A stretch of DNA of 24,336 nt from a virus (IMGVR_UViG_3300042567_001852:1-24336), one strand, 5' to 3'; shown: positions 1-16,218, counted from the first letter of the stretch. Notes: generated by a model not told the origin, from the letters alone. Program-made: numbers and translations.

Positions 1-515
1 TGCGCCTCATGGGTCTCGACCTCTCCCTGACATCCACGGGCATATCTATGAACGGAACGACTAGTGTTATCCGTCCCAAGACACGAGGTGCGGAGCGTTT
101 GTCTGATGTTACGAAGGAAGTATTGCATCAGTGCTTGGAAAACGAAATTGCTTGCGTTCTGATTGAGGGTTACTCGTTTGCTTCCCGAAGTGGACAAGCA
201 TTCAGTATTGGCGAACTCGGTGGTTGCATCCGGATGACGCTGTTTGAATGCAATATTCCTATTGTTGAAATCCCGCCCACCTGTCGTGCAAAGTTTGCAA
301 CTGGAAGAGGAAATGCATCAAAGGGAGAAGTCATTTCTGCCATCTCAGCAAAGACTGGAATCATCTTCAGTGGAGCCTCCGGCAATGACGAATGTGATGC
401 GTGGGTTCTTGAACGAATGGGTATGGTTCGCCTAGGAATAGATTCACAATGGGACTGGACAAAAGAGCAACTTTCTGCACTTGACAAAGTAGACTGGTCT
501 CCACTAGAAGAATAG
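1..515 (+). CDS. RuvC-like Holliday junction resolvase (5' edge of window)
   Basis: RuvC/RNase H-fold endonuclease, expected to cut Holliday junctions or branched phage DNA before packaging, using two metal ions. Counting from the ATG at 9, the family's acidic residues are in place: Asp4 in the GLDLSLTSTG strand, Glu53 in VLIEGYSF, and Asp127 and Asp130 in NDECDAW. The PPTCRAKFATGRGNASK stretch (residues 89-105) matches the conserved RuvC segment before the last helix. The frame is open to the left edge; bases 1-8 read (x)TG-CGC-CTC, so with an A just outside the window the protein would begin M-R-L-M-G-L-D, which fits RuvC N-termini better than a start at 9. About 170 aa is normal for the family. 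It heads a tightly packed + strand operon. Family assignment is firm; the exact start is not. Confidence 0.85.
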   Translation, partial: RLMGLDLSLTSTGISMNGTTSVIRPKTRGAERLSDVTKEVLHQCLENEIACVLIEGYSFASRSGQAFSIGELGGCIRMTLFECNIPIVEIPPTCRAKFATGRGNASKGEVISAISAKTGIIFSGASGNDECDAWVLERMGMVRLGIDSQWDWTKEQLSALDKVDWSPLEE

Positions 516-517
516 GT

Positions 518-865
518 GTGAATAAAAATATGAGAAATTCCCCAATAAGCCAAGTTGACATTGAACAAGAATTGATTCGTTTAATGGACTCTTTGGAAGA
601 GGAAACAGAACAGTTTGAATCTCTGTCCATGGACATGGCCAAAAAGGAAGCTTTTTACAAAGCTAACTGGGCACGAGAATACCTGTCAGCTAAGGGTTCA
701 ATCAAAGAGCGCGAAGCATGGGCTGATTACAAATTAGACCAAGAGCATTTTGAATACAAGTGTGCCGAGGCTCTGGTTAAATCTAAAAGAGAAAAACTGT
801 TCTCCGTTCGTGCATCAATGGATGCAATAAGAACGCTTAACGCTAACGTAAGGTCTCAGGTATAA
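518..865 (+). CDS. Small charged helical protein, function unknown
   Basis: A 115-aa hydrophilic protein rich in Glu, Lys and Ala, predicted by eye to be mostly helical with coiled-coil character: the LIRLMDSLEEETEQFESLSMD stretch near the N-terminus and the repeated Lys/Glu runs afterwards. No family was recognised and no catalytic motif is visible. The start chosen is GTG at 518, with AGAAG about 8 nt upstream; ATG at 530 is an in-frame alternative that would remove four residues. The gene begins 2 nt after the RuvC-like stop and ends 2 nt before the ParB-like start, so it is almost certainly translated with them. A DNA-metabolism accessory role is only a guess from position. Confidence 0.7.
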   Translation: MNKNMRNSPISQVDIEQELIRLMDSLEEETEQFESLSMDMAKKEAFYKANWAREYLSAKGSIKEREAWADYKLDQEHFEYKCAEALVKSKREKLFSVRASMDAIRTLNANVRSQV

Positions 866-867
866 GC

Positions 868-1731
868 ATGGCTAATGGAATACACGAATCCTTAACTTCT
901 CTAGCTTTTGATATAAATCTTCTAGAGTCCCTTCATAACAATCCACGCAGAGGAGACGTTAATGCGATTATGGCTTCGTACGCCGAGTTCGGTCAAATTA
1001 AGCCAATAGTGATAAGACCCAACAAGGACGGTACAGCAACCGTAATAGCTGGTAACCATCAGCTAGAAGCAGCAAAACTGCTTGGGTGGGACAAAATAGC
1101 CGCTGTCCAGTATGACGTTGATGACACTAGGGCTATGGCTTTTGCTATCGCTGACAACCGAACAATGGAACTCGGATACACCGAGCCAGAACTTCTTGAA
1201 GAGTTTGTTTTAGAAATGGTCGACTTCTATCCAGAACTTTTAACCGGACTGGGTTGGGATGAATTCTCAACAGCCGAAATCGAACAACGCTTTATCAGAG
1301 AAGACAATCGGGTTATTGAGCCCGGAGCAGGATTTATGGCCCCTGTAATTAATTCCGACTACGGGAACGGATTCAGTTCTCGACTTGACAAGTTTTCCGA
1401 CTATGAAGATTCTGATGAAGATGTTCCAGTTAAGGACGCACCAGAAATGGACAGAAATGTTGTTTCGGTAACCCAAACAGGAGACGGGAAACAAAGAATC
1501 GACATAATGCCAGGCATGAATCAAAACGATGCTGTCATTAGGGGCTCAACAACAATAGCCCCTGGGTCCGCACCAAGAGCTGTTGTTCAGTACACAATCG
1601 TGTTTGACAATACAGACCAACAAGCACGATGGTATGAATTCATGAAATGGCTCAAGGCTGACCCAGCTATTGCTGGCGTAACAATGGCTGAAAAACTAAT
1701 CGACTTCATAGACCAACACATAGAAATATAG
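868..1731 (+). CDS. ParB/Srx-fold (ParB-like nuclease domain) protein, long form
   Basis: 287 aa. Residues ~20-125 form a ParB N-terminal (ParB/sulfiredoxin fold) domain: the N-N-P-R-R start, the FGQIKPIVIR strand, then AGNHQLEAAKLLGW, which replaces the GERRxRA box of chromosomal ParB, and later FAIADNR. This fold binds a nucleotide, and in different families acts as a CTP switch, nuclease or kinase. No helix-turn-helix DNA-binding domain typical of partition ParB follows; instead there is an acidic linker (~180-205) and a C-terminal domain (~235-287) with the pattern YTIVFDNTDQQARWYEFMKW. The second position of the box is His-Gln where Arg is usual, so the activity is uncertain. It lies one small gene upstream of a PP-loop/PAPS-reductase-like gene and a second ParB-like gene. 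A role in plasmid-type partition is unlikely, since no ParA is present. Confidence 0.8.
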   Translation: MANGIHESLTSLAFDINLLESLHNNPRRGDVNAIMASYAEFGQIKPIVIRPNKDGTATVIAGNHQLEAAKLLGWDKIAAVQYDVDDTRAMAFAIADNRTMELGYTEPELLEEFVLEMVDFYPELLTGLGWDEFSTAEIEQRFIREDNRVIEPGAGFMAPVINSDYGNGFSSRLDKFSDYEDSDEDVPVKDAPEMDRNVVSVTQTGDGKQRIDIMPGMNQNDAVIRGSTTIAPGSAPRAVVQYTIVFDNTDQQARWYEFMKWLKADPAIAGVTMAEKLIDFIDQHIEI

Positions 1732-1739
1732 GATTACCA

Positions 1740-1943
1740 ATGGAACAGACCATAGAACAAAAATGCAGATACCTTCTCGGCAAAGGAAAAGTATCGCCGG
1801 CTGAGTGCGCTGAAGTTTTGGAGGCGCTCGATACTCGCATCTCTGAGGCCACGTACTGGAAAGGCGTAGCCGAAAACATGATGCGCGAGAACAACGAGCT
1901 TCGTGCCGAGGTATCACGCCTCACTCAAATCGCAAGATACTAA
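1740..1943 (+). CDS. Small coiled-coil protein, function unknown
   Basis: 67 aa. The C-terminal half (about residues 38-64: YWKGVAENMMRENNELRAEV and following) has the heptad pattern of a short coiled coil. The N-terminal part holds two Cys (in KCRYL and AECAEV) but no zinc-finger spacing. No homologue was recognised. The ATG lies 8 nt after the ParB-like stop, and its own stop TAA abuts the ATG of the PP-loop protein with no gap, which implies translational coupling inside the ParB - PP-loop - ParB cassette. It may be an adaptor or oligomerisation subunit of that cassette; this is inference from position only. Confidence 0.65.
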   Translation: MEQTIEQKCRYLLGKGKVSPAECAEVLEALDTRISEATYWKGVAENMMRENNELRAEVSRLTQIARY

Positions 1944-3083
1944 ATGACTCGTCAGCGCCTATTTCTTGATATGTCCTGCGTTGACGCTGCAAGACAGAGA
2001 ATACGGCACGTCTACGACACTTTCGACACTGTCTGCGTACAGTTCTCTGGAGGGAAAGACTCCACTGCGATTCTGTATCTAGCAAAAGAAATACATGAAG
2101 AGCGAGGCCTTGGTCCGGTAAAGGTAATCTTTCGAGACGAAGAGATGGTCAGTCCCACTGTCGTAAAGTACGTGGAAAAGGTTCGCAACTACGACTGGGT
2201 GGATATGGAGTGGTACTGCCTTCCTTATCCTGCAGAGATATGGTTTTTGGGTCATAGGCTTACTACTATTTTGTGGAGCCAGCAAAGATTCGAACAAGAT
2301 AGATGGGTTAGGCCGATGCCTCCATGGGCTATTAGTGGTAAGCATTTTGGTTTAACTCATGAAGTTTCTCTTCCTGAACAGACGGACTATTACACAATGC
2401 AGGGAAAAAGGGGGAACGTAGCTTTCCTGACTGGTGTTAGAGCCAGTGAATCAATGGTTCGTTATCGCTCCGTGGTTCAAAAGCTTCATGAGAACTACAT
2501 CAATATCCCATATAAGTTGAAAAAGGGAATCCCGTTAAAGTTTGCAAAAATAATATATGACTGGAATACAAATGATGTATTTAAGTTCATTATTGAAGAG
2601 CATGACGCTGAGTATTGCGAGTACTACGACCTGGCCGTAACCACAGGGAGCAATACGAGGGTCGGTATTCCACTTCATGCTACGGCAATTCGCAGAATAG
2701 GTGATGTGGTTGCTACTGAACCGGAATTTTATGACAGACTGTTTGATTGCTTTCCTTACATAGACGCTCAAAGACGCTTATGGGCTGATTTCGATTCAGA
2801 AAAACTCATAGAAAGTTATGCGCGAAGAGGATTTGATGGGGCGTCTGCGTTTATCGACAAGTACCTGATAGGTGATAGGCGAAAGACGGAGGCTCGTGTT
2901 TATGTTTCAAAATTTAGAAAAAAACATCTTGGTGACCCTCATGGATATCCAGTCAGCTGGTTGATAAGAAACTTAATGCTTAATGATATTGACGTTAATT
3001 CACCGACCCCTGTGGGTCCCAAAACTCGCGCTCATGCTGTGCGAGCGCTAGAACTAGAAAGAGCAGATATCTATGAATATTAA
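1944..3083 (+). CDS. PAPS reductase-like PP-loop ATPase (IbrA-like)
   Basis: 379-aa member of the adenine-nucleotide alpha-hydrolase (PP-loop) superfamily, phosphoadenosine-phosphosulfate reductase-like branch. The PP-loop SGGKDS is at residues 35-40 after strand VCVQF. A GVRASESMVRYRS motif in the middle and IYDWNTNDVFKFI after it are typical of the PAPS reductase/IbrA (DUF3440-type) group. The CCxxRK and ECG-type cysteines of assimilatory reductases are not seen, so classical sulfate reduction is unlikely; an adenylation or sulfur-transfer chemistry on another substrate is more probable (inference). The next gene, a ParB-like protein, overlaps it by 11 nt, the same partnership as IbrA-IbrB in E. 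coli, where the pair affects expression of surface immunoglobulin-binding proteins. The start at 1944 directly follows the preceding stop. Confidence 0.85.
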   Translation: MTRQRLFLDMSCVDAARQRIRHVYDTFDTVCVQFSGGKDSTAILYLAKEIHEERGLGPVKVIFRDEEMVSPTVVKYVEKVRNYDWVDMEWYCLPYPAEIWFLGHRLTTILWSQQRFEQDRWVRPMPPWAISGKHFGLTHEVSLPEQTDYYTMQGKRGNVAFLTGVRASESMVRYRSVVQKLHENYINIPYKLKKGIPLKFAKIIYDWNTNDVFKFIIEEHDAEYCEYYDLAVTTGSNTRVGIPLHATAIRRIGDVVATEPEFYDRLFDCFPYIDAQRRLWADFDSEKLIESYARRGFDGASAFIDKYLIGDRRKTEARVYVSKFRKKHLGDPHGYPVSWLIRNLMLNDIDVNSPTPVGPKTRAHAVRALELERADIYEY

Positions 3084-3630
3084 AATCGAATACGTTGAAC
3101 CGTCCCTGCTTTCTGTTCCTGAATGGAAAGCTACCTACACCCTGCGTCCAGAGATGCTTGTTATCTCTGCCTCCTTGTCTCAGTTTGGCTTCATTCAGCC
3201 GATACACGTCAGGCTTGCCACTGGGGAAATAATCGACGGCTCGGAAAGATACTTGCTGGCAACAAATATTCCGCAAATTCTTGCTATGAGCGATGGAAAA
3301 ATACCGGTCGTGTACCACGACGTTGACAAAATGGACGCCATGATGATGCACCTTCGGCTCAATAGGGGACACTCCCATGTGTTGGCTCCTAAAACATCAG
3401 ACATAATCCGAACACTTAGACGTTCTGGTAAATACGGTATTTCAGATTTTGAAGACATGCTTTGCATGCGTTCGGAAGAACTCTCTCTAATGCTTGACGG
3501 AAGTCTCTATAAAGTGAGAAAAATTAAAGAGCACAATTACGCCAGAGCATGGATTCCTATTGAGGCTCCGCCTGGCTCACTAGAGTCATCTACGGTCTCT
3601 ATCGAAAGACCCCCCAATCCTGACAGATAA
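3073..3630 (+). CDS. ParB/Srx-fold protein, short form (IbrB-like)
   Basis: 185 aa. Residues ~5-105 show the ParB/Srx core: LSQFGFIQPIHVR, then EIIDGSERYLLATN (the GxxR box, here G-S-E-R), IPVVYHDVD and HLRLNR. The C-terminal ~80 residues (LRRSGKYGISDFEDMLCMRS and on) are a short helical domain that may bind nucleic acid, ending in a Pro/Ser-rich tail. It starts inside the end of the PP-loop gene (11-nt overlap), so the two are translationally coupled and likely act together. It is clearly diverged from the upstream 287-aa ParB-like protein: shorter, a different box and no YTIVFDN C-terminal domain. Function in phages is not established; nuclease, nucleotide-switch or kinase activity are all possible for this fold. 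Confidence 0.78.
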   Translation: MNIKIEYVEPSLLSVPEWKATYTLRPEMLVISASLSQFGFIQPIHVRLATGEIIDGSERYLLATNIPQILAMSDGKIPVVYHDVDKMDAMMMHLRLNRGHSHVLAPKTSDIIRTLRRSGKYGISDFEDMLCMRSEELSLMLDGSLYKVRKIKEHNYARAWIPIEAPPGSLESSTVSIERPPNPDR

Positions 3631-3674: not shown

Positions 3675-4451
3675 ATGCCAGGAGTACGTTACGGCCCAGA
3701 CATATCCGACGATGCGGCCTACTTTGTTGACAAGGTTAAGGAAATTCAAGCCAACATTCGTTTAGGGAAAAAACCGAACGCTGGAGAACGAACAACCCTG
3801 GCAAATGCTGCAGAATTGGCTAATAAAGTTTTTGGTGTCAGTAAAGCAAATTTCGATAAAGGTAAACTTGGCGAAATGGCTGAGATGGCACGATACGGTG
3901 GCTCCAAGGCATTAAGTCGACGAGCAAAAGACTCTCGAGACGGTTCGTCGATGACGAAGTCTGTAGCAGAAGAGTTGCTGGACAGGTCTACTGGCAGAAA
4001 CAGTCGTGGCAGTAGAACGAAGCCTGCAGAAGGAACTTACTACGAAGGACGTACTCGCTCGAAGAGATTCCGTGAGCTTGAAGCAAAAGCAACCAAGCGT
4101 TTGAACAGGAACGGAGTGGAGATAGGCAAAAGGTCGATAAAGAAAGGCGGAATCAATTCGTCAAACTTTAAAGATAGAGTCGACGGGCTGCAAATTACTA
4201 AAGCAAGAGGCGGCAAGAAAGACACGGCACGGGGAGCGGCTAGTTCCGACTTGATGAACCGAGTAAGAGGAGACTCTGCCGTCACGAAGCCAGGAATAGG
4301 TATCCGTCCTCGATTGGCGAGGTCTCAGCAAAGAGCAGAGCAACGTAAGAAAAAAGTTTCAGGACCCAAAACACCTGCGAGCGCAACAAGAGCCAAAAGT
4401 GGTCAGGCGAAAACAAAAACAACAGTCCAAAGAGCCGGAAAAAATAAGTAA
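3675..4451 (+). CDS. Very basic Lys/Arg-rich protein, function unknown
   Basis: 258 aa, strongly positively charged. Residues 1-75 are a mixed-charge, probably folded helical domain (DDAAYFVDKVKEIQANIRLG, then a Gly/Ala/Met stretch). From about residue 80 onward the chain is dominated by Lys, Arg, Gly, Ser and Thr with few hydrophobics, and the last ~60 residues resemble a histone-H1-like tail (PASATRAKSG, AKTKTTVQRAGKNK). Such composition suits binding of DNA or RNA, for example a packaged internal protein or scaffold, but no family was recognised. A good Shine-Dalgarno AAGGA at 3665-3669 supports the ATG at 3675. It is separated by 44 nt from the ParB-like gene and converges on the minus-strand pair. 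Confidence 0.72.
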   Translation: MPGVRYGPDISDDAAYFVDKVKEIQANIRLGKKPNAGERTTLANAAELANKVFGVSKANFDKGKLGEMAEMARYGGSKALSRRAKDSRDGSSMTKSVAEELLDRSTGRNSRGSRTKPAEGTYYEGRTRSKRFRELEAKATKRLNRNGVEIGKRSIKKGGINSSNFKDRVDGLQITKARGGKKDTARGAASSDLMNRVRGDSAVTKPGIGIRPRLARSQQRAEQRKKKVSGPKTPASATRAKSGQAKTKTTVQRAGKNK

Positions 4452-4463
4452 AAAGATAAATTT

Positions 4464-4901
4464 CTAAAGGGTTGTAATCTCGTCCTCTTCGTCCCCTAGA
4501 ACTTCTTTCTCATCCATCAGCCTCCAACTATGCAGTCCTAGTCCGGCATCCGGTTCAGCATCCTCTAGAAAATCTTCATAGTAATAATCATTTTCCTGTC
4601 CGAAGTCTTTTTCCAGTAAAAATTGCTTTACAGACTCTACTGGTTCAAAAGTGGCTAAATATCTTCCAGTTGAGCTTTCTGTTCCAATAATTCTTAATCC
4701 GCACATGGCCATAAGGGTAGTTGCAACCTGCCACATGTAATCGCCCAACTCTACTTTTATGTCGTCATCTTCTATTTCAGGCTCATGCTCGGTGTAGTAG
4801 TAAAATAATCCCTGATGAAGCCTGTCCACAATGTTTACAGTCGCGGCTCTTCTTGCGTTTTGGTCCGCAAACAAAGTGCCCTTAATTTCTTGTTCTGACA
4901 T
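4464..4901 (-). CDS. Acidic protein, larger member of a tandem paralogue pair
   Basis: 145 aa, read on the minus strand. The core (residues ~22-100) aligns by eye with the neighbouring 100-aa protein: NIVDRLHQGLF against SVLDRVTQALF, ATTLMAMCGLRIIGTE against ATVVMAVAGMSIVGEN, and GRYLATFEPVESVKQF against GDYVARFKPYKSFSDF. It adds an acidic Tyr-rich tail (YYYEDFLEDAEPDAG, GDEEDE). No known family was recognised; the pattern suggests a small alpha/beta domain. AAGGAT precedes the start at optimal distance in the 12-nt gap to the upstream partner. It faces the + strand gene ending at 4451 with only 12 nt between the stops and no hairpin terminator visible there. A minus-strand cassette inside a plus-strand structural block looks like a separately regulated insertion. 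Confidence 0.72.
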   Translation of the reverse strand: MSEQEIKGTLFADQNARRAATVNIVDRLHQGLFYYYTEHEPEIEDDDIKVELGDYMWQVATTLMAMCGLRIIGTESSTGRYLATFEPVESVKQFLLEKDFGQENDYYYEDFLEDAEPDAGLGLHSWRLMDEKEVLGDEEDEITTL

Positions 4902-4913
4902 ATTTATCCTTCT

Positions 4914-5216
4914 TTATTGAATATTGTTTTTAATAGCAAAGTCACTAAAGGACTTATAGGGCTTGAACCGTGCAACATAATCGCCGTCGATGTTTTCCCC
5001 AACAATGCTCATTCCCGCAACTGCCATGACTACAGTGGCCATTTCAAAAGACTGATTTGCTAAATCGTCAATTTCGTCAGGAGACTCAATTCCGCCCTCC
5101 GGCATAAATAATGCAAATAACGCTTGAGTGACCCTATCTAAAACGCTCATATTGGCTTCAGATATCTCTTTGTTGTCGAATTCAACAGTTGGATTAAATT
5201 TTGATGAATCGCTCAT
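4914..5216 (-). CDS. Acidic protein, smaller member of a tandem paralogue pair
   Basis: 100 aa, first gene of the two-gene minus-strand operon. Residues ~22-98 share a family with the 145-aa downstream protein (see the motif pairs there), with low but collinear identity, so the two arose by an old duplication. It is acidic, has no membrane segment and no catalytic motif that can be recognised. The start at 5216 has GGAG directly abutting the ATG (rev. comp. ACGGAGATG), poor spacing; a downstream in-frame ATG before SVLDR has no better site, so the longer form is kept. Transcription must begin in the divergent gap 5217-5334. Regulatory protein or anti-defence protein are possibilities without direct evidence. 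Confidence 0.7.
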   Translation of the reverse strand: MSDSSKFNPTVEFDNKEISEANMSVLDRVTQALFALFMPEGGIESPDEIDDLANQSFEMATVVMAVAGMSIVGENIDGDYVARFKPYKSFSDFAIKNNIQ

Positions 5217-8671: not shown

Positions 8672-9169
8672 ATGTCAAAAGTAGCTCAAAGACAAGTACT
8701 AGCAACAATAGTTCCAAGCACTTTCAGCGACAACGCCAAACAGCAAACCAACGTGCAGGCCAACCTGCCTAAGTGGAACGGATTCCGCTTTGCTCAGGTT
8801 TCAGGTGGCGAGATAACAGCATCTGTAGAGAAAATCTACGAAGGCGGAAAGTCTAGACCAACAGTCCTATGTGCCCCTTCGGAGATAGGTGACATCACGC
8901 TGACTGCTCACTATGACGATGATATGAATACCTCACTCACTGAAGCTGGTATCGGCCGTAAACTCAAGGACTTGCGTCGATACGTCGGAACAGCTTACTT
9001 TAACCTTACAGTATCTGTTTACGACTGCGACATCAAGGACCCAACCAATGACCGTATTTACACAAATGCGCTTCTTGTTGGAATGACTGAGCCAGAAGGT
9101 GACTCGTCATCTGGAGCTCCAGCCACCTTCGCATTGACCTTCGCAATCTCAGACGTAGACGCCGCCTAA
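8672..9169 (+). CDS. Tail tube protein
   Basis: 165-aa tail tube protein that stacks as hexamers inside the sheath. It shows the beta-rich pattern of the family: SGGEITASVEKIYEGGKSRP, then EIGDITLTAHYDDD, and a long LRRYVGTAYFNLTVSVYDCDI strand and the closing FALTFAISDVD. Length and position directly after the sheath are standard for contractile tails. AAAGGAA 7-8 nt upstream of the ATG is a strong ribosome-binding site, as expected for an abundant structural protein. Confidence 0.88.
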   Translation: MSKVAQRQVLATIVPSTFSDNAKQQTNVQANLPKWNGFRFAQVSGGEITASVEKIYEGGKSRPTVLCAPSEIGDITLTAHYDDDMNTSLTEAGIGRKLKDLRRYVGTAYFNLTVSVYDCDIKDPTNDRIYTNALLVGMTEPEGDSSSGAPATFALTFAISDVDAA

Positions 9170-9217
9170 ATACGCTAGTTGCAACGCCAGGCAATATGTC
9201 TGTGCTAGCTTCTCAGC

Positions 9218-9769
9218 ATGAGCGATAATCCACTGTACACAACCGAAGACTCCGACGACGTTAAGAGCAGCAAAAAGGCTGGTCAGCGTGATGGACTTAC
9301 TTCTTCTATAAAAGAAGAGACACAACTTGACCGCTTGCGTTCTGTTGTCAAAAAGAAAGTTGAACGCCCTGTTGTTCATATTCCTGTCACGGAACGTGAT
9401 GGTGTGAGCATTAAGGTCAGCCCAAACATTACCCAGTCACAGATGAAAAACTGGAGAAAATCTGCTGGCGAAGACTCACGAAACGGTCTTGATGCCACTA
9501 AATTTGCCTGCCTAGTTATTGGTAATACAACCATCGGCATCTGTATGGATGATGAGGAAATCTATGACGAGAGTGGCAATAATCTTAACTTTGCTCACCC
9601 ATTAGTTTTGGAAATGACCGATACTACTCGTCCGGTTCCAGATGCCGTTCGTGCCATGTTTGGTGTTGACCCTCACATCGAATCAGCCGCTTTGGCAATC
9701 TTGGACGCCGCTGGATATTCAGATACTGTTGCCGCGGTGGACCCTACGAAGGAATCTTCGACGAACTAG
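9218..9769 (+). CDS. Tail assembly chaperone, short (G-type) product
   Basis: 183 aa in the zero frame. The first ~65 residues are charged and probably disordered (TTEDSDDVKSSKKAGQRDG and following). The middle, with VSPNITQSQMKNWRKSAG and FACLVIGNTTIGI, is a small alpha/beta domain that matches chaperones that coat the tape measure during tail assembly; their C-terminal region is helical (PDAVRAMFG, LAILDAAGY). The stop at 9767-9769 lies within the stem-loop described separately. No Shine-Dalgarno sequence is evident before 9218. Position between tube and tape measure genes is the classical place for this gene. Confidence 0.8.
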   Translation: MSDNPLYTTEDSDDVKSSKKAGQRDGLTSSIKEETQLDRLRSVVKKKVERPVVHIPVTERDGVSIKVSPNITQSQMKNWRKSAGEDSRNGLDATKFACLVIGNTTIGICMDDEEIYDESGNNLNFAHPLVLEMTDTTRPVPDAVRAMFGVDPHIESAALAILDAAGYSDTVAAVDPTKESSTN

Positions 9770-10000: not shown

Positions 10001-13000
10001 ATGGCAGACGAAAATATTAATGTAAAAATTAAATTTGATGCCCAAACTGGTGAAATTCGCCGTGCGATTGCAGAAATTGCAGTTTTACACAAAAGACTAG
10101 ACAAGCTTTCTAGCGGTAGAACAGACAAGTTTGCCAACAGCACAAACAAAAGCCTAAACAGCATGACCAGTGGCTGGAAGAGAAGTTTTGACGCCATAGA
10201 CAAAGGCGCAAAGATGGCAGGCAAAGGCCTGACCAAGTTCTTGGGAATGTCAGTTAAGGGTGTTGTTGTCGAAATGGCAATACTTGGCGCAACAATGATT
10301 GGCATCCATGCATTATTTGCTGCAGGACAATTTCTGGTCAAAGCCTATAGGGGAGCCATGCAGATGCTTGCGTCAGGTGCGGCGGGGGTGGTTGTTGCAA
10401 TATCTGCAGCCTCGGCAGCCATACGAGAACAACAAGCAGCAATATATGCCTACAGGGGCAAGGGTGCTCCAGCTTTTGGGTCAGCGATGAATCAGACCCG
10501 CATGGCGATGAGAAACCTGCAATCCGATGCCGCTCTGTCGAGCCTTGGCGTAGAAGCACTCAATAAGGCATATGGAAATATGTCAAAATCAATGAATACC
10601 AGCCAAATTAATCAAAGTGGTGGTGCAATCAAGGCTTTGATGGACTTTGGTTCAGCAGGTCAAGACCCAGCCAAGGGGCTTGAGCAAGTATCTGTAGTTA
10701 TAGCCGCACTTTCTGATAAAAAGAAAAACATCAGTGACGTCATAACTGAGGCAAAAAAACTAGGTCCAGAGATGGAATCGGCTTTAAAAAAGGCGAACGT
10801 TAAGACAAAGAAACAATTTCAAGAACTCCTGATGTCTGGAGACCTTGCTAAAAAGGGTGGCGTCTCCGGTCAGTTTGACGCAGTGAACAATACTTTGATT
10901 AGTCAAATGAAAGGCTACTTTACCCGTTTACGTGGCGAATTCGCGGACTTTGGCGACATGTTTCTTGAGCCGCTAAAAACTGCATTTGCTCGCGTGTTTG
11001 ACAAAGTCAGAACCGACTTAGCGCGCGTATTTGCTGCAATCCAGTACAGCTTTGGAGCAGAGGAAGGAATAAATAACTTTGCAAGCGCTATAGAAAAAGC
11101 ATCTGGCTGGCTAGTGAAAATGATTCGCGAATACCTTCCTACTGCTGTTGGCATGTTCGACAGAATCGGTGACTGGTATACAAAATTCAAGCGTGGTTGG
11201 AATCTTGTTCTAGATGCGACACGTCCACTTATCGACGGAGCAAAGGTTCTATATAAGGCCATGGACCCGATATGGGATTCCATCAAGGGAGGCGCTCAAA
11301 ACCTTACGCTTTTCAAGGACCTCCTGGAAGAAAATAGTTTTTTTGTTGAAGAGTTCGGTCAACGCATAGCCGACATCATCGACACCCTTTCTGAATACTT
11401 TATGGGCCTAAAGAAAAACTTTGCCCAAATGGCTCCATTTATAAATGACCTTTTAGCAGGCCTTAATCAGGTATTAAAAGTGCTTACGAAAGTAATGACC
11501 GTTGGAGCCGGAAGCGGTCTTGGGGCAGCGCTTGCCCCACTAATGGGTGCTGCTGTTTTGGGACGAGGATTGGCCGGAGTCAAGGGGCGCTTAATGCCCA
11601 AGTCCGGAACCCATACACAAACCATGAACGTAACGGCCAACAGTGTAAATATCGGCAATGCTGGTCCAGTCGGTTCCGGTCGCCTTTCTTCTGGCGCAAC
11701 GTCAGCAGGAGGTAGTGGTGCTCCTGGTAGTTCTGGTACGTCCGTTTATCCGTCGTCAAGAATAGGAGGCGGAGCGTATCGCGAAATGAGAGATGACCCA
11801 TCTCGTAGATTTTCCCAAAATATTAAAGACGGATATCGCATGGGGTTTCGCTCAAGTGGTTCAACCCAAAGACACACAGAAAGATTTACCAAGAGGCAGC
11901 AAATAGGACGAGGAGCTGGATATGCGGCATTTGGGCAACCCAAAGACCCGTATGCATCCCCGACCATTATGGGTCGTGATGGAAAACCTCAACCAAACCC
12001 TCAGTACAATCTTGCACAGTCTGCTCGTTTTCGAGCCGAACAGTCACTAAATGGTCGCTCTAGAGACGAGTTGCATCAAATTGCGACAGGCAAAGGCATT
12101 ACTGGCATAACTAAAGAATCTACAAGAGAAGAAATAAATCGCCAAATACTTGCAAAAAAGGGCTCAGTTGCAGAATTCAAAAACGACCCTCGCCCTGTCG
12201 GAATCGGAACAGGCGTTTCAAACGACCTTAGACGTGCAGCAAACAAAACCAGGTCAGGCATAGATAGGGGAGTTGGTGTCGCTAGAGGCGGAATGGCTTA
12301 CCTCAACTCTGGTGCGTACGACAGCGAAAAAGGTGAGTTCAGAGATGTAAAAGCACAGCGCGACGCACTAAAGAACAGAAGATTTGGCGTGAAAGGCGAC
12401 GACGGAATAAGAAAAGGAGGAACTGACTCGCAAGGGGGCCTGAGAAAACTTTCGGGAAGATTAAATTACGCCCGCGATATGAACAGAATTACGCGTAACG
12501 ACAGTAAATTCGGAGCAGGCACAAAGAAGTTCAACAACAGTATGGGTGGTCGCGCCGGTGTAGGAATAGGACTTGGAATGGCAAGTCAGTATGCCCCAGA
12601 AGAAATGCGTGGAGCCATGGCTCTTGGAGCAACCGTTGCCACCATTAACCCAATGCTTGGACTTGGTGTTGCTGGAATAGGTGGAGCCATGAAGGCTCAG
12701 GGCACAATGAAGGGTGCGATATCTGGTGCTGCTGGTGGAGCCGCTCTAGGCGGAATGCTTGGGCCACAAGGCGCGGCTATTGGTGCTGGAATAGGTCTAC
12801 TTGTCGGCGGAATAATGGGAGCCGTAAATAAAGGAAAGGCTCAACTTGCTGCAGCTAAAGCGACAGTCATGGAAAGCTTCGGGCGTCTTTATATGGAGAC
12901 CACGAAAAGCGCAGGAGCAGCATTTCAGAAAAACTACGAAGCTTCCCAGAAAGGTCAAAGCCTGGCTGGAAAAGGTGCAACCATGCTTGGAGTTGGAGCA

Positions 13001-14734
13001 GGTTATGCAAAAACCCAAGCCGGTATTCGCAGCTCTATAAGTGGCGCAATAGCAGGTACCGGCGGAAGCTACATGTCGGGTGGGAGACAGGAATTCGAAG
13101 ACCCCGTAGCCGCTCTTGAGGCGTACTACAAGACTGCAGAAGGAAAAAAGGTAAGCGCAGAAGACCAAAAGACACAGAAAAAAAAGGCGACTGGCACGCT
13201 GCGCACAATGCTAAAAGAAACTGACCCGGCTGTTCAGAAACAACTTGGGGAAATAGACAAACAAAACACCGCCAGAATAGATGCGTTATCTAGAGCTACT
13301 GGTAAAAGTGGTGCAGAACTAGAACAAATGGCTAAAAAGTTGGGTATAGACCTCTATAACCCAACCGTAAAGTACAACGAACTTCTAACAAAATTTACTG
13401 AAGGCATCATAAAAACCGGAGCAGCCCTGAATGATGCGTTAGTAGATACTTTTCTTACTGGAGCAAATCCCTTCAAGGAAACCAGAGAAGCAGGAGAAAA
13501 AAGCGCCGCTCTCAACCAGAACGTAGCCGGTTTAGGTGATGTCCTTCGTAAGAAGGGAACAAGCAAGGCGGATAAATCAAAAGCCATTGGCGCTTCCTTT
13601 GAGCAAATGATGCCGCAACTACTGGCAGTAAATGGTGGGGATGCGACAAAAGCCTATCTTGCCTATAACGAAATGTTTGGTCAAGGAGAAGAGGGGGGGG
13701 TTTTTGCAAAAGGCGGAGCCCTGGCAGGACAGGGAAAGACCGTCTTGGGGGATAAAGATGTTATAAAATCTCAAGGTTTGCTAAAAGAGGGAATGGTTGG
13801 CGAAGCTGCTACTCAAATAAGCGCAAGACTATCCAAGAAGAACATGACGGTCGACCAGGGAGCCCTGAAAGCAGCTCTCGCTAGTAAGAGTCCAAAAGAA
13901 TTGGCAGCGATACTGGGCGATGTTTCGACGTTTGACGAGGCAATGGACCCAGAGCTTGCAAAGCGCGGCGTAGACACTAACAGACTAAGAAAAGGCTTAA
14001 AAGGCGAAACTGCAGCAGATTTAACATCAGGTCTTGAGAGCATCATCGGGCCCGGTGTAGCGATTACTGCTGAAGACCCAAAGAAGCTTGACGCAATAGC
14101 TACTGCGGCTACTGATTTTTCTACTTCTGCGACAGGTCTAGAAACTGCTATTAATACATTTAACACCAATATGGAAGGCTTCTTCAAGGCCCCTCTCGGC
14201 GAAATGCCGGGATGGTGGGAAAAGGGTCTGGTATTTGATGGCAAGACTCTTAAGCCGGCCAACGATACATCTACCCCTCGCGCGGGTGGCGTAGGAGACA
14301 CTGCAACAAGCAAACTTTCTCAAACAATGGGCCGTCACGCTGCTATGAACGGTCAACTAACAGGAAAGAGAACAGTCACTTCTTCTCTCAGAGATTACGC
14401 ACTTGGTTCAATAAACTCAGACCACGCAACTGGTTCTGCTTATGACCTCACAGGACAGAACCTAGGTCAGTACGCAAAGCTTGTTCACGCGAATGGAGGC
14501 TTTGCTGAGTTCCACGGTTCCATGGCTAATCGTCATCTCCACGTTGTTCCTGGTTCCGGCATGGGTGACACATCAACACCTTCACCAGTTTCTACATCAT
14601 CTAGTTCCGGTGGTGGAACCAATAATTACTATACATTTGAAATAAATGGCAACAACGCTGCTCCTGAAGTAATTGCCAATATGGTCATGGCCAAGATTCA
14701 AGAAAAAGAACGTTCTGACAGGCAGAGAAGATAA
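10001..14734 (+). CDS. Tail tape measure protein with M15-like peptidase motif
   Basis: 1577 aa, which sets tail length and is ejected into the host. The N-terminus is helical (IRRAIAEIAVLHKRLDKL) and is followed by a hydrophobic region (~83-142). The centre (~500-830) is Gly/Ser/Arg-rich and low in complexity; ~847-945 is an Ala/Gly hydrophobic stretch (MLGLGVAGIGG, GPQGAAIGAGIGLLVGGIMG) suited to membrane insertion. Near the C-terminus is a zinc peptidase motif of the M15 type: His1475-x6-Asp1482 in SDHATGSAYDL and HLH at 1512-1514, with Glu/Phe residues before it, so local peptidoglycan cleavage during DNA entry is likely. The end (FEINGNNAAPEVIANMVMAKI) is a common tape measure tail motif. 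At about 3 residues per 4.5 angstroms of tail, the length suggests a tail over 200 nm, as an estimate only. The stop overlaps the next start (TAATG). Confidence 0.93.
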   Translation: MADENINVKIKFDAQTGEIRRAIAEIAVLHKRLDKLSSGRTDKFANSTNKSLNSMTSGWKRSFDAIDKGAKMAGKGLTKFLGMSVKGVVVEMAILGATMIGIHALFAAGQFLVKAYRGAMQMLASGAAGVVVAISAASAAIREQQAAIYAYRGKGAPAFGSAMNQTRMAMRNLQSDAALSSLGVEALNKAYGNMSKSMNTSQINQSGGAIKALMDFGSAGQDPAKGLEQVSVVIAALSDKKKNISDVITEAKKLGPEMESALKKANVKTKKQFQELLMSGDLAKKGGVSGQFDAVNNTLISQMKGYFTRLRGEFADFGDMFLEPLKTAFARVFDKVRTDLARVFAAIQYSFGAEEGINNFASAIEKASGWLVKMIREYLPTAVGMFDRIGDWYTKFKRGWNLVLDATRPLIDGAKVLYKAMDPIWDSIKGGAQNLTLFKDLLEENSFFVEEFGQRIADIIDTLSEYFMGLKKNFAQMAPFINDLLAGLNQVLKVLTKVMTVGAGSGLGAALAPLMGAAVLGRGLAGVKGRLMPKSGTHTQTMNVTANSVNIGNAGPVGSGRLSSGATSAGGSGAPGSSGTSVYPSSRIGGGAYREMRDDPSRRFSQNIKDGYRMGFRSSGSTQRHTERFTKRQQIGRGAGYAAFGQPKDPYASPTIMGRDGKPQPNPQYNLAQSARFRAEQSLNGRSRDELHQIATGKGITGITKESTREEINRQILAKKGSVAEFKNDPRPVGIGTGVSNDLRRAANKTRSGIDRGVGVARGGMAYLNSGAYDSEKGEFRDVKAQRDALKNRRFGVKGDDGIRKGGTDSQGGLRKLSGRLNYARDMNRITRNDSKFGAGTKKFNNSMGGRAGVGIGLGMASQYAPEEMRGAMALGATVATINPMLGLGVAGIGGAMKAQGTMKGAISGAAGGAALGGMLGPQGAAIGAGIGLLVGGIMGAVNKGKAQLAAAKATVMESFGRLYMETTKSAGAAFQKNYEASQKGQSLAGKGATMLGVGAGYAKTQAGIRSSISGAIAGTGGSYMSGGRQEFEDPVAALEAYYKTAEGKKVSAEDQKTQKKKATGTLRTMLKETDPAVQKQLGEIDKQNTARIDALSRATGKSGAELEQMAKKLGIDLYNPTVKYNELLTKFTEGIIKTGAALNDALVDTFLTGANPFKETREAGEKSAALNQNVAGLGDVLRKKGTSKADKSKAIGASFEQMMPQLLAVNGGDATKAYLAYNEMFGQGEEGGVFAKGGALAGQGKTVLGDKDVIKSQGLLKEGMVGEAATQISARLSKKNMTVDQGALKAALASKSPKELAAILGDVSTFDEAMDPELAKRGVDTNRLRKGLKGETAADLTSGLESIIGPGVAITAEDPKKLDAIATAATDFSTSATGLETAINTFNTNMEGFFKAPLGEMPGWWEKGLVFDGKTLKPANDTSTPRAGGVGDTATSKLSQTMGRHAAMNGQLTGKRTVTSSLRDYALGSINSDHATGSAYDLTGQNLGQYAKLVHANGGFAEFHGSMANRHLHVVPGSGMGDTSTPSPVSTSSSSGGGTNNYYTFEINGNNAAPEVIANMVMAKIQEKERSDRQRR

Positions 14735-16218
14735 TGGCACTAAATAGCATTTCATACATAACTGTCGGCTATACCGAAACAGACAACGCAAGCGTTAGAA
14801 AAGGCTATCCAATAAAGCAGCTGTTTAAGCAAACAGTAAACACAAACACTCCAGTTTTCCCTGCTTCCTATACTCCTGTTTCTACTCAAAAATATTGGCT
14901 TCCCTTTCTAAGTGGTGCCCAGCAAGACTTTAACTTTATTGAGTACACGGTGGGTGATGAGTACGGGTGGAACGATGCCGACAACCTCCGAGCACCACAG
15001 ATACCGTACTCAAACCCAAAAACAACAAAATACGACGACTTCGTAACTGGTCATAAGATTGTTTTTGCTAACAATATATACGTAGCAACGCAATACACGT
15101 TTGAGTGGGGTCTTACCAAGTTTAAAAGCAACACGAATCCTTACAAGCAATCACGAATTAAAAAATGGCGTAAATTTAATGACACCGATGATGACTGGTC
15201 TCAATACTGGTATCATCCTCTCCTTAAATTGTTTTTTCTCTTAGACTCCACAGATGCAATAGCGGAACTTCCTAATTTTGACGAAGCCTCACAGTCAAAA
15301 TGGGATAATTTTGTTGGTGATTCAACTGATATGAATCTCGAAAACTTCGACTTAGCTCAAATTAGAGAATTGACATCTGGCGGAACTTCCAATGCGGCTG
15401 CAACGAGCCTGGTTGCTTCGCTGTCTACAAGAAATAACAATTTTGCATCTACTTATATTGTCAATACTGCAGTAAAAGCAAAAAGCGCAACAATTTCTGT
15501 TTTGTCACCTACACAAACTGTAAAAGCATCATCAAAACCTGAATCGCCAAAAATGATTCAACGCAGAGCAATATCTAATTCTACTGAAAAAACGGTCCTA
15601 GATGAGTACGAGTTCAACTTACGTCCCAACAATATCTCATACAGCAATATTGGAATTACATGGACGGAAATTGAACGTTTAAATAATTATGGATTGGTTG
15701 ACTATAAAAACAATAAGCTTATGAAAATTTCATTTGAATTTGTTGTTGAAGCTCATTCAGGAGATAAATCAAGCATTTACGAATCATGCGAAGACAAACT
15801 CGCAAAACTTCAGAGAATGGCAAACACTCCAGAACTTGTAATATTTAGAAATTTTGACTCCCTGTTTAGCGGCAGCACTGCAGTCATAGAAGATAAAAGC
15901 TATAGGGAATGGGCGATTTTTGATATGTCAATCTCTTCTATTCAAAGAACTCCCCTTACCTCCGTATCGGATGGGGGGAGCATAAGTCGCGCTACCGTAA
16001 ATATGACAATTCAAGAAGTGCGTCTCAGCCCTGACAATGTCATTTTTATGCCAAAACTTCGTAAGGTTCCGAACGTACCGAACGCCCCAGGAGGAACTCC
16101 CGACCCAGAACTGTGTACCGAACTAGCAACAGACTCTTCAGAGACAGCTCGCTCGGGCGGAATTAAACTCAGTCCATGTTGGTACAAGAACCGAGGAATG
16201 GCCGTTCCTGCGGAGTAA
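14734..16218 (+). CDS. Tail protein after tape measure, XkdP-like position (function uncertain)
   Basis: 494 aa. The N-terminal ~200 residues are Tyr/Trp/Asn-rich (YWLPFLSGAQQDFNFIEYTV, KWRKFNDTDDDWSQYWYHPL) and were not recognised. Residues ~290-440 have a pattern seen in phage baseplate/hub accessory proteins, FNLRPNNISYSNIGITWTEI followed by KISFEFVVEAHSG and SISRATVNMTIQEV, reminiscent of the XkdP-type protein that sits between tape measure and the gpD-like hub protein in many contractile tails; no LysM domain is seen. A Pro-rich, two-Cys tail ends it (PELCTEL, LSPCWYKNRG). Its start shares bases with the previous stop. The call is from gene order and partial pattern, so the role is moderate confidence; expression as a structural protein is likely. 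Confidence 0.65.
   Translation: MALNSISYITVGYTETDNASVRKGYPIKQLFKQTVNTNTPVFPASYTPVSTQKYWLPFLSGAQQDFNFIEYTVGDEYGWNDADNLRAPQIPYSNPKTTKYDDFVTGHKIVFANNIYVATQYTFEWGLTKFKSNTNPYKQSRIKKWRKFNDTDDDWSQYWYHPLLKLFFLLDSTDAIAELPNFDEASQSKWDNFVGDSTDMNLENFDLAQIRELTSGGTSNAAATSLVASLSTRNNNFASTYIVNTAVKAKSATISVLSPTQTVKASSKPESPKMIQRRAISNSTEKTVLDEYEFNLRPNNISYSNIGITWTEIERLNNYGLVDYKNNKLMKISFEFVVEAHSGDKSSIYESCEDKLAKLQRMANTPELVIFRNFDSLFSGSTAVIEDKSYREWAIFDMSISSIQRTPLTSVSDGGSISRATVNMTIQEVRLSPDNVIFMPKLRKVPNVPNAPGGTPDPELCTELATDSSETARSGGIKLSPCWYKNRGMAVPAE

Follow-up and report, generated by a model that had tools for sequence, protein, structure and literature searches.

A phage ParB–PP-loop–ParB cassette that may direct modification of the phage's own DNA

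The closest described relative of the genes considered here is the IbrA-IbrB pair, in which a protein of the PP-loop/PAPS-reductase superfamily adjoins a single ParB-fold protein, and which is carried on a genetic island of Escherichia coli and by phages of Streptococcus, Lactobacillus and Flavobacterium. Proteins of the same superfamily (DndC, SspD and BrxP) also serve in DNA phosphorothioation, and a protein of the ParB superfamily, DndB, may be present in Dnd systems. In addition, two phage modules, namely the preQ0/DpdA module of Rosebush, Faze9 and StAugustine and the TET/TAGT (TET-associated glycosyltransferase) hypermodification module of Acadianvirus Rich, lie in a slot between a ParB gene and the terminase. 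The present work concerns a three-gene cassette on a 24,336-nucleotide virus fragment (IMGVR_UViG_3300042567_001852:1-24336; the whole stretch is called the window), in which a PP-loop gene is flanked by two ParB genes, ParB1 upstream and ParB2 downstream. Phage PAPS-reductase-like genes are usually read in the literature as sulfur-metabolism or DndC-like genes, and no paper describing this three-gene set was found in full-text literature searches. Comparison with other phages suggests, with a probability of roughly 55%, that the cassette serves to produce a modified base (or nucleotide) within the DNA of the phage itself.

An earlier note on this DNA had described four co-directional open reading frames at the locus, and all of them are present on the plus strand, exact to the base:

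868–1731, plus strand: ParB1, 287 aa, ParB/Srx fold, upstream ParB of the three-gene cassette (Pfam and PHROGs)
1740–1943, plus strand: coiled-coil-like protein of 67 aa, encoded between ParB1 and the PP-loop gene and not always present
1944–3083, plus strand: probable PP-loop ATP pyrophosphatase of the PAPS-reductase superfamily, 379 aa, the putative core enzyme (Pfam, PHROGs, alignment and AlphaFold2 model)
3073–3630, plus strand: ParB2, 185 aa, IbrB-type ParB fold with a helical, helix-turn-helix-like C-terminal part (PHROGs, tree and model)

A gap of 8 nt precedes the 67-aa frame, a gap of 0 nt precedes the PP-loop gene, and the PP-loop gene overlaps ParB2 by 11 nt (3073–3083).

Conservation of the cassette was surveyed in 208 loci, which form 75 clusters at 80% identity, 28 belonging to this PP-loop clade and 47 to the IbrA type. 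A ParB gene stands on both sides of the PP-loop gene in 24 of the 28 clusters versus none of the 47 IbrA-type clusters, which carry a single ParB (for example, in phages of Streptococcus, Lactobacillus, Flavobacterium, Fusobacterium and E. coli); the proposal that two different ParB partners take the cassette beyond the IbrAB pair is thus borne out. The four exceptions comprise a locus at a contig edge (L118), one with ParB1 3 kb away (L208), one with an intein in its PP-loop protein and no ParB1 found (L120), and one lacking any ParB (L205). Similarly, in 80 IMG/VR loci with a PP-loop identity of 77–100%, the PP-loop gene lies between ParB1 and ParB2 in every case in which the contig extends far enough, and for the window lineage alone IMG/VR contains 599 or more matching stretches, counts that are dominated by near relatives, a bias that clustering at 80% lowers and does not remove. 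The same order is also held by phages whose PP-loop proteins are only 30–41% identical, such as Arthrobacter Kovu (ParB gp5, PAPS gp6, ParB gp7, acetyltransferase, terS, terL), Mycobacterium Obutu, prophi79-1, Bacillus 035JT001 and Rhizobium L338C, and because it recurs at such distances, the arrangement is not attributable to chance. The range spans phages of Actinobacteria, Bacillus and Rhizobium, with identity down to about 30%; when the Bacillus PP-loop protein was used for a pattern search, no viral relatives were returned. In the PP-loop tree, a single branch (Shimodaira-Hasegawa-like approximate likelihood ratio test, SH-aLRT, 92) parts the two-ParB from the one-ParB architecture. Judged by this comparative evidence, ParB1, the PP-loop gene and ParB2 constitute a real and ancient cassette. 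An intermediate also occurs (L119:2641-5733), with a ParB on both sides, yet with a PP-loop protein and ParB2 that branch nearest the IbrAB group.

The family assignments of the earlier note were upheld by profile searches, in which ParB1 matches Pfam ParB_N (E=1.5e-9) and the PP-loop protein matches PF01507 (E=8.7e-11), both above cut-off, with PHROGs matches to phrog_723 (E=1.9e-33) and phrog_2302 (E=6.1e-77), respectively. ParB2 is weak in Pfam (E=0.038) and is assigned through phrog_2159 (E=4.7e-21); its predicted fold, which is followed by a helical domain, matches the CTP-binding ParB, Noc and KorB. Nucleotide-site motifs of the ParB type are retained in both proteins, as GQxxPI, AGNHxLxAAK and DNR in ParB1 and as GxxQP, IIDGxxR and NR in ParB2. 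In a tree of ParB proteins, a 100/100 branch sets all upstream ParBs, with the window ParB1 in the clade of the B3 and Arthrobacter ParB1 proteins, apart from ParB2 and IbrB, which fall together on the opposite side; long branches leave the finer joins uncertain. On this topology, the role of IbrB-like partner to the PP-loop enzyme falls to ParB2, and ParB1 forms a separate clade. A ParABS partition function was considered and rejected, since ParB1 scores 40.9 bits against the TIGR00180 cut-off of 58.45 and ParB2 gives no match.

Several features place the ParB1 clade near DNA modification. The ParB1 N-terminus matches phrog_498, annotated 'DNA methyltransferase' (E=3.8e-17), and a ParB1 domain is fused to an N6/N4 DNA methylase in two loci (L229, 1185-3020; L249, 317-1972), with a weak further case of such a fusion in L218:1-1440; as far as gene fusions can indicate, these tie the clade directly to DNA modification. 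ParB folds bind CTP, ATP or GTP and are frequently fused to methyltransferases in phages (PMC12704722).

The evidence that carries the proposed function comes from what occupies the same genomic slot in other phages. In mycobacteriophages and their relatives, a gene of the ParB1 clade lies upstream of the terminase, and the intervening genes vary; a profile built from cassette ParB1 proteins recovers gp1 of the B2, B4 and B5 phages at 90–94 bits. The cassette itself stands directly upstream of TerL in the B3 phages, Arthrobacter AL and prophi79-1, the order in Obutu (B3) being ParB1, two small genes, PP-loop, ParB2 and TerL. Faze9 (B2, of the same species as Rosebush) instead carries ParB1-DpdA-QueC-QueD-QueE-FolE-TerL, and StAugustine likewise holds a preQ0/DpdA pathway in the ParB1 slot; in Rosebush DNA, dPreQ0 has been reported at about 28% of G (PMC6884629). 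In Rich (B5), the order is ParB1, TET/JBP, TAGT, PIG-L deacetylase, P-loop nucleotide kinase and TerL. Other occupants are a pyridoxal phosphate (PLP) enzyme in Vincenzo, an ABC/GNAT protein with a formyltransferase in Gordonia phage NHagos, and, in L229, the ParB1-DNA methylase fusion beside TerL. Altogether, 28 ParB1-terminase loci represent 11 ParB1 clusters, and a recognised enzyme module is present in nine of them (eight by gene content, plus the L229 methylase fusion), a tally in which actinophage isolates are oversampled and for which the slot-module queries came from those phages themselves. ParB1 proteins at least 70% identical adjoin different modules. Moreover, of 26 records, all complete or long, 11 carried the PP-loop gene and contained no DpdA, TAGT or QueC over cut-off, the 15 others contained no PP-loop gene, and none held two of the probed modules (PP-loop, DpdA/QueC, TAGT); DpdA was probed with a DpdA protein query, and PF01702 (TGT), which also missed a known DpdA phage, was discarded. 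A PAPS-like gene beside glycosyltransferases in Microbacterium phage Rasputia had no TET or TAGT partners on checking, and in a 158-kb relative whose genes were surveyed, no second modification pathway stood out as decisive among the matches listed (in one batch, 25 of 34 families). Because the cassette takes a position that, beside the same ParB1, is occupied in other phages by DNA-modification pathways that are measured or strongly predicted, the simplest reading is that it is another DNA-modification pathway, and we infer that DNA would be its substrate.

The cassette differs in content from the modules it replaces. The preQ0/DpdA module likewise includes a PP-loop enzyme, QueC, whereas the cassette has neither a TGT-like inserting enzyme nor a deazaguanine pathway; the TET/TAGT module relies on oxygenase and glycosyltransferase chemistry, and the cassette on a PP-loop protein and ParB2. 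Relative to IbrA-IbrB, with which it shares its catalytic residues, this PP-loop clade branches apart, gains ParB1 and adjoins the terminase in actinophages.

Certain observations weigh against a DNA-modifying role. The slot may be a general cargo site, since two of the 11 clusters lack a recognised module or have an incomplete one (L230; and L251/L253, where L251 holds QueE and FolE and L253 nothing recognised). In the window lineage, TerL lies about 4 kb upstream of the cassette and not directly downstream, so the replacement argument rests on relatives that are 30–41% identical in the PP-loop protein; the window would belong to the slot by homology of its ParB1, PP-loop protein and ParB2 to the B3 and Arthrobacter cassettes. 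Furthermore, the Bacillus and Rhizobium phages hold the cassette away from annotated terminase genes, no phage with the cassette has a measured DNA modification, and E. coli IbrAB is known as a transcriptional co-activator and not as a modifier.

That last point underlies the best placed of the alternatives, itself unlikely, which is that the cassette acts as IbrAB does in E. coli ECOR-9 and is a switch for genes of the phage or prophage, either directly or by way of a small-molecule signal, leaving the DNA unmodified. IbrAB is annotated as a co-activator of prophage gene expression, ParB2 groups with IbrB, and ParB folds bind nucleoside triphosphates (NTPs) and DNA (PMC12704722). However, the slot is common to DNA-modification enzymes, the IbrAB effect could itself stem from DNA modification, and the ATP-pyrophosphatase site is invariant: the SGGKDS motif reported by the earlier note lies at residues 35–40, and it is invariant across the clade together with D65, E67, W111, R123, R166, E169, R173, D206, W207, D211, Y228 and R239. 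Established family knowledge makes ATP pyrophosphatase chemistry likely for this protein. In both the sequence-profile and the fold search (AlphaFold2 model, mean predicted local distance difference test, pLDDT, 80.7), FAD synthase ranks first, followed in the fold search by PAPS/APS reductases. FAD synthase is an adenylyltransferase that works with no catalytic cysteine, and its PAPS domain has DW...D and YCxxYD motifs in common with the PP-loop protein; the two differ in context, are about 14% identical, and no flavin link was seen for the PP-loop protein.

A second alternative, which we consider improbable, is a DndC/SspD-like sulfurtransferase that places phosphorothioates or thiolated bases in phage DNA. 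It draws on the common superfamily, on weak DndC and BrxP profile matches, and on a DndC similarity noted for a prophage PAPS-reductase-like protein (PMC8092301). Against it, no cysteine is invariant in 26 aligned PP-loop members, the best-kept one, C225, being present in 92% of this clade and replaced by Asn in the IbrA clade; nor do these 26 share the conserved cysteine dyad of the DndC type. The DndC score of 21.9 bits is far under the TIGR03183 equivalog cut-off of 290.4, and CysD reaches 17.9 bits against a cut-off of 195. In addition, no cysteine desulfurase (PF00266) was found in eight relatives of 119–159 kb, whereas 14 of 14 control genomes matched; a host enzyme such as IscS could substitute as the sulfur source. 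Cysteine-based sulfur transfer is accordingly disfavoured on sequence grounds, and the lack of an invariant cysteine, the failed DndC, CysH and CysD cut-offs and the FAD synthase fold together favour adenylation with a non-cysteine nucleophile. Of the functions and chemistries listed in the earlier note, DNA modification gained support from module replacement, and sulfur chemistry lost ground.

The remaining alternatives are less probable still. RNA or tRNA modification, which would aid phage translation or evade a tRNA-targeting defence, is suggested by the PP-loop enzymes TilS and TtcA, which act on tRNA, and by TilS and tRNA thiolases among the weaker structural matches; we regard it as quite improbable, given that the window contains no tRNA gene, the slot partners of known product act on DNA, and ParB1-type domains are fused to DNA methylases. 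A packaging accessory, in which ParB1 and ParB2 would help the terminase and RuvC to mark sites, nick or load, with only a tuning role for the PP-loop enzyme, would account for the constancy of terminase and RuvC as neighbours in actinophages, yet it is rendered very improbable by the swapping of PP-loop and ParB2 for biosynthetic modules while terminase and RuvC remain, and by the distance of the cassette from the terminase in L338C. Finally, a true PAPS reductase acting as a sulfur-assimilation auxiliary metabolic gene (cysH), the usual virome label and one reported to be a regular feature of viruses from pelagic freshwater (PMC8066274), is scarcely credible, because the CysD cut-off is missed, the window protein has no CysH model among its listed matches at E<=0.01 (the B3 homologue scores 26.9 against a cut-off of 154), the C-terminal ECGLH motif of CysH is in no member scanned, no cysteine is invariant, and ParB genes accompany the gene in nearly all cases; viral genes of this kind that bear the label "cysH" have probably been mis-annotated.

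If the cassette modifies DNA, its division of labour may be envisaged as follows. The PP-loop protein and ParB2 would form the catalytic core, equivalent to the IbrA-IbrB pair, in which the PP-loop enzyme would consume ATP and adenylate a carbonyl or phosphate group on a base, a nucleotide or a small donor. As in QueC and lysidine synthase TilS, AMP would then be displaced by a nucleophile that is not an enzyme cysteine, which could be ammonia, an amine or an amino acid. ParB2, as an NTP-binding ParB fold, would be an obligate partner that perhaps presents the DNA or gates the reaction. ParB1, which is also found beside preQ0/DpdA, TET/TAGT and methylase modules, may be a module-independent accessory that links the modification step to DNA in the neighbourhood of packaging. 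Bacterial Dpd systems offer a direct precedent for such a helper with a ParB fold: their ParB-like ATPase, DpdB, is described as assisting insertion of the modified base (PMC12839542). More tentatively, and with the odds somewhat against it, PP-loop and ParB pairs including IbrAB could together represent a new DNA-modifying class that uses cysteine-free adenylation towards an undescribed base, with ParB1 as a general adaptor and viral 'cysH' genes of this type as DNA modifiers. Were the DNA-modification reading right, a widespread phage gene set would gain a testable function, and so would IbrAB, whose biochemistry has been open since 2002, gain a mechanism that can be put to the test. Counts of such genes as sulfur metabolism in virome papers would then need correction, and one ParB-fold adaptor would be common to unrelated DNA-modification chemistries. 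Culturable phages of Mycobacterium, Arthrobacter and Bacillus carry the cassette.

The 67-aa protein has no family in Pfam or PHROGs, and its gene is retained in near relatives under purifying selection (nonsynonymous divergence, dN, of 0.21–0.33 versus synonymous divergence, dS, of 2.1–3.8). Its N-terminus varies between phages, and a short RLxQIAxY-like C-terminal tail is retained. The earlier note had counted this coiled-coil gene in the cassette, on condition that both it and ParB1 be co-conserved beside the PP-loop gene, which proved right for ParB1 and wrong for the small gene; because it is absent or replaced in most relatives, a core role is ruled out. In many cases, the ParB1 and PP-loop genes share 4 nt and no gene intervenes, or another small gene occupies the position; the protein is therefore a real but replaceable insert. 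The tail abuts or overlaps the PP-loop start codon in the window and in three other loci (L026:5740-6000; L068:5831-6001; L073:5819-6001). In some freshwater phages, the PP-loop protein is itself split by an intein (L120:2759-4861; also L121 and L122) with a LAGLIDADG endonuclease (Pfam LAGLIDADG_3 and Intein_splicing), inserted at ...MEWY/C....

Two conserved neighbours outside the cassette precede it:

9–515, plus strand: RuvC-like resolvase
518–865, plus strand: phrog_1389 protein

In the 24-kb window, the genes 3' of the cassette encode head-tail connector, sheath, tube and baseplate proteins of a contractile tail, and proteins of 1577 aa (10001-14734) and 494 aa (14734-16218) in the tail region have no PHROGs match. 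Directly after ParB2 (3675-4451) lies a gene for a highly basic, fast-evolving 258-aa protein (27–50% identity in relatives), possibly a virion or DNA-binding protein. Longer relatives (119–159 kb) carry terminase, Rad52-like, Cas4-like nuclease, HNH and RuvC genes 5' of the cassette, and their WhiB, Thy1 and class II ribonucleotide reductase genes suggest an actinobacterial host. The 158-kb relative (L209-L216) encodes an RmlABCD-like dTDP-sugar pathway, several 2-oxoglutarate (2OG)-Fe(II) oxygenases, glycosyltransferases and WhiB-like regulators. Two acidic, paralogue-like proteins are encoded on the minus strand within the rightward late region of the window (4464-4901 and 4914-5216), and the pair recurs in relatives (L018:8521-8934 and 8931-9239).

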